From Streptomyces plumbidurans (GTDB taxonomy: Bacteria; Actinomycetota; Actinomycetes; Streptomycetales; Streptomycetaceae): a stretch of DNA of 64,000 bases. Shown here piece by piece: positions 50,765 through 53,417 of the stretch. The position numbers were made by a program, and so were the translations under genes. Where the stretch lies: positions 1 through 64,000 of the forward strand of contig NZ_JAFJSY010000013.1 of the NCBI RefSeq assembly GCF_019857225.1, read 5' to 3'. The notes below the pieces were generated by a model, which was not told the origin of the DNA, did not search any database, and saw only the letters and a program-made list of their open reading frames with translations. Within the stretch, counting starts at the first letter, position 1, and each line of letters opens with the position of its first letter.

Positions 50765-52153
50765 TTGTCTCAACAGCAGCTGGGACGCCGTCCCTTGAGA
50801 TCCGACCACCCGGCACCACCGGAACCCGGCGGGCCCGGCGAGACCGCACGCTTCGTCGGCTGGCTGGGCAGTCTCGGGTGCGCCGCTGCCGGGTACGGCG
50901 TGTTCCAGTTCCTGTTCGGAGTGCTGCCGCAGTCCCTGGGCGGGGAGGCCGCCCGGTATCTGATCTCCGGGGTCAGCGGGATCGGGACGGGAGTCGCCGC
51001 CTGGCTGGCGGCGGCCCTGGTCCGGGCCCGCGCGGCGGCCGGTCCGGACCGGCCCGGCATCCCCGCCCCCCGCGCCGCCGGCCGTGTCTCGCCCGGTCCG
51101 CTCCCCGATGTCTTCGCGTCCGCGTACACCACGCTCGTCGAGAAGTTGGCCGTCGTCGACGACCCGAACCGCGGCCGCCTCACCGGCTGGTCGCACTCGC
51201 TGAGCGAGTCCGGCCCCGTCCGGCCCACCTCGGTCGGCACCGCGTACGGCCTGCACATCGTGCTCGACCTCGGCATGCCGGACGGCCGGCTGCACGGCGG
51301 GGACCTGGTGGACACCCTGTGGCGGCTCAGGCTGCCGGAAGGGGGCTGGTCCGCGCGGTCGCAAGGGGCAGAGGCCCGGCCGGAGGTCACGGCACTCGTG
51401 CTGGGCGCGCTCGGCCGGGCCGGTGTGTCCCGCGAGCGGCTGGCGCAGGAGGTGGAGCGGTGCACGGCCGCTTTCACGCATGAACTCGACCGCGCCGGGC
51501 GGCAGTCGACCCATGTCGTGACGACCGTGCTGCGCGGGCTGCTGCGCGCCGCGCCCGACGCCGCCGTACTGCCCCAGCTGCGCGAGGCCCTCGCCGAGGG
51601 CTCGATCGGCGACGCCGGCCGTGAGCATCTGCGCTGCTGGGGCTACCGCCTCGACCCGCCGCGCGGCCTGCCGTCCTCCCTGCACACCGCGCAGGCCGTG
51701 GTGGCCCTGGACCGGGCCGCCCGGGTGCTGGGCGAGGACGAGTCGGTGCGCGCCCTGCGGGAGGACGCCGTCCGCTGGCTGCTGACCTGCCCGGACGGGT
51801 CTCATCACCAGTGCCGGGACCTGCGCAACCTGCACGAGGAGGTGCGCCGCCCGCGCACCGACGACCCCTCGCGCCACGAGGTGCTGAACGTACGGCACTT
51901 CACCGCCTCCTGGGTGGTCCGCGCCCTGATGACGCCCGGAGCCCGGGAGGTCGCCGCGCAGGACGGGCTGCAGGAGGCGTGGCGGGAGCGGCTGGACGGT
52001 GCGGCCACCGCGGTGTGGGCCGGGCAGACCGGCGGCATCTGGTCCTGGGGCGTTCCCGACGGCGGTGAGCTGCGGCAGCCCATCTGGATGACCTATCAAG
52101 GTCTTTCGGCGCTGCGGGCCCATGCCGTATGGATGTATGAGCCAGAAGACTGA
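50765..52153 (+). CDS. Membrane-anchored alpha-toroid (squalene-cyclase/prenyltransferase-like repeat) protein
   Basis: 462 aa from TTG 50765, supported by GGAGGGAG. Two N-terminal spans (FVGWLGSLGCAAAGYGVFQF, YLISGVSGIGTGVAAWLAAA) precede a soluble part of repeated helix pairs resembling an alpha/alpha toroid: LPEGGWSARSQGAEARPEVT, then TQAVVALDRAAR-like and VLNVRHFTASWVVRALM segments, and IWSWGVPDGGELRQPIWMTY. The GGW and Q..W elements recall QW repeats, but the DXDD acid of squalene-hopene cyclase is not seen, so it may bind rather than cyclise. First of a probable two-gene unit with the cupin-like gene 42 bp downstream. Confidence 0.65.
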   Translation: MSQQQLGRRPLRSDHPAPPEPGGPGETARFVGWLGSLGCAAAGYGVFQFLFGVLPQSLGGEAARYLISGVSGIGTGVAAWLAAALVRARAAAGPDRPGIPAPRAAGRVSPGPLPDVFASAYTTLVEKLAVVDDPNRGRLTGWSHSLSESGPVRPTSVGTAYGLHIVLDLGMPDGRLHGGDLVDTLWRLRLPEGGWSARSQGAEARPEVTALVLGALGRAGVSRERLAQEVERCTAAFTHELDRAGRQSTHVVTTVLRGLLRAAPDAAVLPQLREALAEGSIGDAGREHLRCWGYRLDPPRGLPSSLHTAQAVVALDRAARVLGEDESVRALREDAVRWLLTCPDGSHHQCRDLRNLHEEVRRPRTDDPSRHEVLNVRHFTASWVVRALMTPGAREVAAQDGLQEAWRERLDGAATAVWAGQTGGIWSWGVPDGGELRQPIWMTYQGLSALRAHAVWMYEPED

Positions 52154-52195
52154 ACCAGGCCCCCGGTGACGGGGACCGGAAGTGGGAGCACGTGC

Positions 52196-52921
52196 ATGGG
52201 CGGTCGTCAGGTTCTGGAGGCACGGCGGCTGCTGGCCAGGACGCTGGACGGTGATCCTCCCGAACACGAACTGGCCGCCGCGGCCCGCTCCGTCGTCGCC
52301 GAACTGGGTTCCCCCGAGCGGCTGTTGGAGCTGATCGACGAACTCGTCTCCGGCGAGGGCGATCCGGAGGGCTGCGCACGGCTGTCGTACCGCCATGTCC
52401 TCGGCTTCGACAAACTGCTGCTCGTCGACGCCGGACCACGCCATATGCTCCGCGCCCACCTGTGGCACCGGCGCTCCGGCGCGATCGGCGAGGAGGACAT
52501 CCACAACCACCGCTCCGCTCTCGCCTCGTACATCGTCCGCGGGCGGATCGCGATGGAGTTGTACGAGGTCCGCGACGAGGGCGGGATCGGCACCGCCCGG
52601 TACCAGGAGTCGCTGGCACGGCAGTCGGCCGACTGGCTGCTGGAGCCGGCCGGTCCGGCCCGGCTGCGGATGACGCATGTGGGGCAGTACGCGGCCGGCA
52701 GCTCCTACGCCCTCCCGGCGCACACCCTGCATCGGGCCTGGTGCGACACGGACGCGCCGACGGTGACGCTGTTCCTGGAGACGGGGAGCGGGCGCCGTGC
52801 CCACACGGACGTGTTCACCCCGGCGGGCCCCCATCCGGGGGCGGTGGCGAAGGTGCCGCTGGACGTGGACGGCTATCTGGGTGCGCTGAGCGGGCTCGCC
52901 GAGCTGCTCAGGAACTCATGA
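52196..52921 (+). CDS. Cupin-like metal-binding protein
   Basis: 241 aa from ATG 52196 (GGGAG upstream). A helical N-terminal part (1-95) precedes a cupin-like barrel with His103 and His105 in DIHNHRS, Glu121 in MELYEV and His176/His179 in LPAHTLHRAW, consistent with an H-x-H...E...H metal site as in cysteine-dioxygenase-like cupins. Enzyme activity unknown. The last codons (AELLRNS) lie in the first unit of a 28-bp repeat. Downstream gene is a convergent NUDIX hydrolase. Confidence 0.7.
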   Translation: MGGRQVLEARRLLARTLDGDPPEHELAAAARSVVAELGSPERLLELIDELVSGEGDPEGCARLSYRHVLGFDKLLLVDAGPRHMLRAHLWHRRSGAIGEEDIHNHRSALASYIVRGRIAMELYEVRDEGGIGTARYQESLARQSADWLLEPAGPARLRMTHVGQYAAGSSYALPAHTLHRAWCDTDAPTVTLFLETGSGRRAHTDVFTPAGPHPGAVAKVPLDVDGYLGALSGLAELLRNS

Positions 52922-53009
52922 AGGCGCCGAGCTGCTCAGGAACCCATAAAGGCGCCGAGCCGCTCAGGAGCTCATGAAGGCGCCGGACTGCTCAGAGGCT
53001 CGTGAAGGC
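52901..53009. repeat. 28-bp tandem repeat spanning cupin and NUDIX gene ends
   Basis: Units 52901-52928, 52929-52956 and 52957-52984 plus a partial fourth from 52985, consensus GAGCTGCTCAGGAACTCATG then AAGGCGCC. The first encodes the last residues of the cupin-like protein; the last overlaps the C-terminus of the NUDIX gene (stop 52992-52994). Confidence 0.92.
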
Positions 53010-53417
53010 CTGGTCGACGATGTCGAGGTTGTAGTCGTCGATGTCGACCGTGGTCAGCTCGGAGCGCGTCAGCCAGATGTGGGCCTGGTCGGGCAGGGGC
53101 AGCGTGATCTGCCGGGTCAGCGGCCTGACCAGGAAGTTCTCCTGCCAGTTCTTGACCTCGTGGCCGCCGTACTCACTGACGAAGGACGACTCGCCGACCT
53201 TGCGGACGATCTCGCCGAGGAGCCCGGTCTCCTCCTTCAGCTCGCGCAGGGCGCCGTCGGGGGCGCTCTCGTCCGGTTCGAGCTTGCCGCACGGCACGCC
53301 CCACACGCGGGGCAGGAACCTCTCCGTCTCACTGCGGCGCACGAGCAGCACCCTGCCCGCCTCGTCCATCACGACCGCGGCCGCCAGTCGCTTGTCGCCG
53401 GGGATGTCCATGTCCAT
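52992..53417 (-). CDS. NUDIX hydrolase
   Basis: 141 aa from ATG 53417 (MDMD; a second ATG at 53411). The NUDIX box is perfect at 44-66: G-x5-E-x7-REL-x-EE-x-G-L in GKLEPDESAPDGALRELKEE then TGL. Hydrolyses a nucleoside diphosphate linked to another moiety; substrate unknown. It is convergent with the cupin-like gene across the 28-bp repeat. Confidence 0.92.
   Translation of the reverse strand: MDMDIPGDKRLAAAVVMDEAGRVLLVRRSETERFLPRVWGVPCGKLEPDESAPDGALRELKEETGLLGEIVRKVGESSFVSEYGGHEVKNWQENFLVRPLTRQITLPLPDQAHIWLTRSELTTVDIDDYNLDIVDQAFTSL

Follow-up and report, generated by a model that had tools for sequence, protein, structure and literature searches.

The Question Raised by the Locus

Do three neighbouring genes of Streptomyces plumbidurans, which encode a membrane-anchored alpha/alpha-toroid protein, a cupin and a NUDIX hydrolase, belong together, and on what kind of molecule may they act? 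The question was raised by a stretch of 64,000 nucleotides (NCBI RefSeq assembly GCF_019857225.1, contig NZ_JAFJSY010000013.1, positions 1 to 64,000), which is referred to in full as the window and for which an earlier reading of the letters alone (the sequence-only reading) had proposed the triad as a possible functional unit. According to the comparison of related loci, the three genes were shown, at the level of sequence and gene order, to be a real conserved unit. No system of toroid–cupin–NUDIX composition was found in Pfam, NCBIfam, PADLOC or the open-licence literature searched, and a description elsewhere is possible; the passages searched in PMC13118837 and PMC10865869 contained no description of the cassette.

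Conservation of the Triad among Streptomyces

A pattern-based scan for the cupin in 84,980 species genomes yielded 45 loci, all titled Streptomyces. In 43 of them the cupin gene had a toroid gene beside it, and 44 had a convergent NUDIX gene there. Loci from other searches were added to give 80 rows, from which 12 were removed because their cupin hit was identical to another, leaving 68 distinct orthologues. The threshold for this count was a cupin identity of at least 45%. Seventeen loci with lower identity or short hits, among them the broken gene of L167, were left out together with short duplicate loci. A full triad was also carried by L178, the cupin identity of which (44.9%) is below the cut.

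In 65 of the 68 loci the toroid gene preceded the cupin gene on its strand, in 65 the convergent NUDIX gene followed it, and 62 had both. The order and orientation of each partner were constant (65/65 for the toroid and 65/65 for the NUDIX gene). Of the three loci without a toroid, L042 and L119 were situated at contig ends, and the cupin of L040 also lacked the part that matches the first 34 residues. Three loci had no NUDIX gene: L026 had none beside the cupin, and L046 and L047 had an EEP phosphoesterase gene between toroid and cupin. Judged from gene content, the toroid–EEP–cupin order of these two divergent loci showed a module swap, in which EEP replaces NUDIX.

The 53 loci with a cupin at least 70% identical to that of the window often kept the flanking genes of the window as well (for example, in 33 of 53, and in 37 of 53 for a DUF2264-like gene). 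The 15 most divergent loci had the toroid in 14 cases and the NUDIX gene in 13, and EEP was found in the other two. Seven flanking genes were tested, labelled from their translations as MFS, ArsR, alpha/beta hydrolase, PEP-mutase-like, DinB-like, DUF2264-like and homocysteine-methyltransferase-like. They were sighted three times altogether in these 15 loci, within fetched stretches of ~3–6 kb on each side, beyond which a flank could be located. The earlier proposal of a functional unit was thus supported, as the genes are conserved together, with unchanged order and orientation, also in loci where the tested flanks were no longer seen; the neighbourhood comparison that had been suggested as a check gave no sign that the three genes are not co-conserved.

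Among 101 Streptomyces genomes, the toroid was present in 17, the cupin orthologue in 18 and the NUDIX gene in 16, at shared loci, and the cupin was present in all 16 genomes that had the orthologous NUDIX gene. The Fisher p values for the co-occurrence of the three genes ranged from 7e-15 to 2e-18, uncorrected for phylogeny. The NUDIX cut-off (1e-25) was fixed beforehand, and the cupin cut-off (50% identity) was chosen after viewing the list, in which the next hit had 34%.

Arrangement of the Genes in the Window

The host genome comprises 8.6 Mb in 189 contigs. The toroid gene (462 aa) occupies positions 50765..52153 of the plus strand and begins with TTG, the start codon of 33 of 48 toroid orthologues when the candidate nearest to the start in the window was chosen; two further toroids were cut by a contig end. 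After a gap of 42 bp, the cupin gene (241 aa) follows on the plus strand at 52196..52921, and the NUDIX gene (141 aa) converges on it from the minus strand at 52992..53417. The open reading frames found agree with the coordinates, gap and directions of the sequence-only reading. The closest relative found was Streptomyces spinosisporus, in which the triad proteins are 92–96% identical. A promoter and terminator scan was uninformative.

The ends of the cupin and NUDIX genes overlapped in 30 of 49 loci measured, and the overlap was 14 bp in 24. At this 3' junction, the window has tandem 28-nt copies (52897-53008). Approximately 1.1 kb of extra DNA was observed between cupin and NUDIX in six relatives (L007, L008, L012, L013, L015 and L033), and that of L013 encodes a trypsin-like secreted protease (by eye). 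In L036, an insertion of 2.1 kb with a helix-turn-helix/TPR-like regulator gene (by eye) was observed between toroid and cupin.

Features of the Three Proteins

The AlphaFold model of the toroid (pLDDT 77) contained two long N-terminal helices followed by an alpha/alpha barrel. The first predicted helix (residues 24-53; 50834..50923, plus strand) had a hydropathy peak near residues 36-54, and the second (residues 61-91; 50945..51037, plus strand) had one near residues 66-84. Of 67 toroid sequences, 65 had two hydrophobic N-terminal segments (duplicates are included in this and in the following family counts). The arginines flanking these segments suggest that the barrel faces the cytoplasm. 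The conserved polar residues include R205, E207, H307, E358, R361, R362 and H378.

In structural comparisons by VIA-align, the toroid model matched cellobiose 2-epimerase with a Z score of 25 (sugar epimerases up to 25, at 8–12% identity), the terpene cyclase MstE with 22 and squalene–hopene cyclases with 21–22; Foldseek returned the same fold class. The barrel resembles those of MstE (6sbb) and squalene–hopene cyclase (2sqc), with Z 21–22 and 15–18% identity over 277–288 residues. Because the epimerases outscored the terpene cyclases, the toroid cannot be assigned to a family by its fold alone. The pattern DxDD, the catalytic acid motif of class II terpene cyclases and squalene–hopene cyclases, occurred in just 4 of 67 toroids, at starts 17, 23, 443 and 445 (0-based, own numbering). 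These positions belong to the N-terminal tail or lie near the C-terminus, and the barrel core had no DxDD, in line with the earlier claim that the acid motif is missing. The window toroid thus differs from class II terpene cyclases in its barrel core, in its N-terminal hydrophobic hairpin and in having no family-model match: neither Pfam (E up to 1, PF13243 and PF13249 included) nor NCBIfam matched it, and PDB sequence searches gave nothing useful.

For the cupin, the HxH motif H103/H105 (52502..52510, plus strand; each residue in 130 of 132 aligned family sequences) and a third histidine, H179 (52730..52732, plus strand; 131 of 132), occurred together in 129 of 132 sequences. The three sequences without the full set were two pieces of one broken gene and one end-cut gene. 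Glutamate was not conserved as a ligand (E121 in 79 and E195 in 76 of 132). On the alignment, the cupin is characterized by a near-invariant three-histidine site, and it may well be a three-histidine metal enzyme, most likely an oxygenase, with these residues as its putative ligands. In this respect it resembles cysteine-dioxygenase (CDO)-like three-histidine cupins, which likewise combine HxH and a distal histidine with no conserved glutamate ligand. A distant member of the family (L066) matched CDO_I at a sub-threshold E value of 0.054; the window cupin itself had no significant sequence match, and no CDO chain appeared in the PDB profile search. In Pfam, the window cupin had a sub-threshold match to Cupin_2 only. 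Matches of the cupin profile to ZDHHC17 in the PDB search were taken as chance.

The NUDIX protein is, by its match to PF00293 (4.6e-19) and its box, a member of the NUDIX hydrolase superfamily. The box (residues 44-66; 53220..53288, minus strand), described as perfect in the sequence-only reading, was recovered by a pattern scan in full in 70 of 72 orthologue sequences. The protein was below the cut-off of all 25 NCBIfam equivalogs listed (best, 43 bits against 245) and so fell into no named subfamily such as MutT or RNA pyrophosphohydrolase among these, and its PADLOC match was the candidate model PDC-S07 only (4.5e-13). The sole solved chain at or below 1e-8 for the NUDIX profile was an AP4A hydrolase-type NUDIX (3i7u; 1.6e-9 over 61 positions), a match mainly in the box region from which no substrate is predictable.

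Relatives of the Cupin and Their Neighbours

With a broad cupin profile, members of the cupin family were found in 76 of 295 Streptomyces genomes and in 4 of 346 genomes of a phylum-wide sample, three of which were Streptomyces; the first-look stage of this search scores 7–9 candidates per genome, so that distant members may have been missed. Forty further places (L109-L148, with L119 and L148 of the window type) were fetched, and the cupin was recovered by gene finder and profile in 36.

One recurrent layout comprises a two-transmembrane (2TM) protein of family c2, the cupin and an IMPase. It was found in 10 of 11 loci with c2 (L126-L130, L138-L141 and L143), and a transporter-like gene and a c4 protein were nearby in 9 of 11. 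The c4 protein was identified by Pfam, run on the L138 copy, as TIR plus NACHT. In L143, the first three genes only of the 2TM–cupin–IMPase–transporter-like–TIR-NACHT layout were seen. A Nonomuraea locus (L175) had the same five gene kinds, the TIR-type protein included (by eye). This neighbourhood is possibly an undescribed immune-type locus, and to our knowledge the 2TM–cupin–IMPase loci have no published name. Like the triad, they combine a 2TM protein with a phosphohydrolase and a cupin from this family; they differ in that the 2TM protein has another soluble domain, there is no toroid, and IMPase replaces NUDIX. Moreover, c2-like 2TM genes overlapped cupin genes on Methylobacterium and Rhodococcus plasmids, and another 2TM protein, c33, adjoined the cupin in L066 and L116. 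No family matched the soluble domains of c2 and c33.

Genes with nucleotide-related products were located near the cupin in several other settings. A NUDIX gene adjoined the cupin in L132, with an adenosine deaminase two genes on; NDK was two genes from the cupin in L068, as was SAICAR synthetase in L070. EEP was near the cupin in L069, L114, L150 and L144 (directly beside it in L144), and a PDB sequence search with EEP gave nothing useful. According to the record annotation, a deoxynucleoside kinase and a histidine phosphatase were in the same gene run as the cupin on a Pantoea plasmid, and a dTMP kinase gene overlapped the cupin gene on a Vibrio nigripulchritudo plasmid. The Vibrio cupin was confirmed at 5e-25. 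Its cluster (L177:6821-14435) also holds adenylation and acyl carrier genes and one pyrF-annotated gene, with a second just upstream, and has the look of a cluster for a natural product derived from a pyrimidine. Seven double-cupin loci (L109-L112 and L145-L147) had two cupins of this family side by side, in clusters that resemble biosynthesis clusters and also encode a HAD-like phosphatase (by eye). An NDK-like protein was present in 5 of these 7 loci, and its L111 copy matched NCBIfam at 1.1e-5, below the cut-off.

Of the 468 genes at most two places from the cupin, 67 had the NUDIX-box pattern and 11 the IMPase pattern, and among 650 more remote genes the numbers were 1 and 0; these counts are descriptive, as the near hits are mostly orthologous or duplicate copies. 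In L122, L123 and L125, the cupin was beside a two-gene set, c21 and c20, of which c21 was CorA-like by PADLOC in the L123 copy (1.6e-8). The same set stood beside the cupin in L072, where a cas1-like gene (label by eye) was also observed nearby. Several candidate assignments were rejected. CYTH in L065 was seen by eye only and had no Pfam match; in L070 it fell just short of the cut-off (21.4 against 23.2 bits), and the L068 copy was unmatched. NDK-like proteins in L076 and L132 were likewise by eye only, with no Pfam match, and a radical SAM protein beside the L142 cupin was ruled out as viperin (27 bits against a cut-off of 180).

Relatives of the Toroid and a Possible Viperin Link

A toroid related to that of the window was found in L065, where the cupin is followed by the toroid gene (4-bp overlap) and then by a gene of the IMPase family, the best NCBIfam match of which did not reach the cut-off. 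This toroid was the sole match at or below 1e-30 among 199 Streptomyces genomes. The profile of the window toroid aligned with it at 27% identity across 237 columns (hhalign E 1.4e-7), and controls from the same genome gave 0.0098 over 46 columns for its own squalene–hopene cyclase and 0.047 for another toroid. The L065 toroid matched SQHop_cyclase_C (PF13243) at 7.8e-22, and its hydrophobic segments are C-terminal (by eye). A reading of its N-terminus as a NUDIX domain was unsupported (hhalign E 0.41; no Pfam NUDIX match).

On a plasmid of Candidatus Thiodictyon (L172:5569-10185), a toroid gene split by IS630 was followed by an IMPase and then a viperin. The toroid was 36% identical to that of L065, and the viperin passed NCBIfam NF038283 with 288.5 bits (cut-off 180). 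The best non-self match of the IMPase listed in the plasmid collection was the IMPase of the Nonomuraea 2TM–cupin locus (35.5%). No cupin was found in the 14.3 kb fetched at L172, and the window toroid itself found no toroid match in plasmids. The likeness to prokaryotic viperin (pVip) loci thus consists of viperin adjoining toroid and IMPase at this single locus; beside 11 divergent window-type triads, no viperin was noticed by eye, in a survey made without a family scan of all neighbours.

Proposed Function and Alternative Explanations

Tentatively, and with a probability judged a little below even, the triad is read as a unit tethered to the membrane: the cupin would modify a metabolite of the nucleotide type, the phosphoanhydride of which the NUDIX enzyme would cleave. 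The three genes would provide one enzyme unit that handles a phosphorylated, nucleotide-type small molecule. The toroid would be held at the inner membrane face by its helical hairpin and may bind or convert the substrate, or a lipid partner, through the conserved Arg, His and Glu residues. For the cupin, a substrate of the nucleoside-phosphate type is proposed, since genes for nucleotide kinases, deaminases and phosphohydrolases lie near its relatives in several clusters that are not related to one another. The NUDIX enzyme (EEP or IMPase in other subtypes) would hydrolyse this substrate, or the product, at a phosphoanhydride or phosphoester bond; the product may be a signal, a precursor or a nucleotide with antiviral action. 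The relatives are the basis on which the substrate class, the order of the reactions and the part played by the barrel are inferred. The sequence-only reading had named modification of a lipid-linked nucleotide or a defence-type small-molecule signal as options; the neighbours of distant cupins indirectly favour the nucleotide part, TIR-NACHT and viperin genes near relatives favour the defence part, and the lipid part may be read from the toroid fold and the membrane helices.

Several results weigh against this reading. Many loci of the cupin family had no nucleotide hint among the neighbours (for example, L117, L131, L136 and L137), and inspection by eye of the neighbours of 11 divergent triads showed no recurrent nucleotide gene, kinases included; the substrate class is therefore transferred from relatives that are ~20–30% identical. 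The cupin could be non-enzymatic. Its structure model was poor (pLDDT 52) and unfit for a structure search, and PDB sequence and profile searches returned no cupin of solved structure and known function as a match. The second piece of the Thiodictyon toroid matched the window profile weakly (E 0.0011). Furthermore, the mirror-tree correlations within the triad (0.77–0.90) were not clearly higher than those with two flanking genes (0.56–0.81). Because the two ranges overlapped when the 16 loci that contain all five genes were compared, the mirror-tree result was not used as evidence.

A broader reading, considered possible but rather doubtful, places the triad as one branch of undescribed modular membrane systems built on the three-histidine cupin. 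Their 2TM soluble domain (toroid, c2, c33 or CorA-like) and their phosphohydrolase (NUDIX, EEP or IMPase) would be exchangeable. Such systems would produce or remove a modified nucleotide, and some branches would be linked to viperin and TIR-NACHT immunity.

The most serious alternative is a defence or immune-signalling cassette, in which a signal derived from a nucleotide would be produced or removed by the cupin and the phosphohydrolase, with the 2TM toroid as the membrane sensor or effector. An immune role of the triad is possible, and this explanation as a whole was judged unlikely. It is consistent with the sister 2TM–cupin–IMPase layout, in which TIR-NACHT-family c4 accompanies 9 of 11 c2 loci and a TIR-type protein the Nonomuraea locus, with the relative of the L065 toroid and the IMPase next to viperin on the Thiodictyon plasmid, with the cupins beside the CorA-like c21 family, and with the patchy distribution of the toroid (17 of 101 Streptomyces). 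However, no defence system was recognised among the neighbours of the 11 divergent triads (by eye only), PADLOC was silent on toroid and cupin and matched the NUDIX protein with a candidate model only, and relatives of cupin and toroid were not found in viral contigs, nor those of the cupin in phage records.

A pathway of isoprenoids or lipid carriers was considered less probable still. Here the toroid, as a divergent terpene-cyclase-like protein of a single domain, would act on a prenyl or polyprenyl substrate, the NUDIX enzyme would hydrolyse the prenyl diphosphate, and the cupin would oxidise the product. The hydrophobic helices, the PF13243 match of the L065 toroid and the fold match to MstE, squalene–hopene cyclase and drimenyl diphosphate synthase (15–19% identity, against 8–12% for the sugar epimerases) point in this direction, but the barrel core has no DxDD, no prenyl synthase or terpene gene recurred beside the 11 divergent triads (by eye), and the neighbours of the cupin relatives indicate nucleotides rather than terpenes.

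It is very unlikely that toroid and cupin form the unit and that NUDIX is a separate house-cleaning enzyme kept by its convergent 3' end. The convergent rather than co-directional NUDIX gene, its frequent end overlap with the cupin gene, and the persistence of toroid and cupin without NUDIX in L026 and with EEP instead in L046 and L047 would fit this explanation. However, 13 of the 15 divergent loci, in which the other flanks were hardly seen, kept NUDIX next to the cupin, the other two have EEP between toroid and cupin, and no genome with the orthologous NUDIX gene was without the cupin.

Chance or plain chromosomal synteny with no functional link is hardly tenable and was rejected as the sole cause, for although several flanks, such as the DUF2264-like gene, are conserved in close relatives, the triad stays in the divergent loci where the tested flanks were hardly seen, with the order and orientation of each partner unchanged.

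Significance for Streptomyces and the Cupin Family

If the reading as a membrane-tethered, nucleotide-handling unit is true, a nucleotide-linked small-molecule cassette would be defined in the well-studied genus Streptomyces. It would also give a first handle on the role of membrane-bound proteins that have the terpene-cyclase fold without the acid motif. Moreover, it would provide a first handle on a family of three-histidine cupins that recurs in nucleoside-type clusters and beside viperin and TIR-NACHT proteins.

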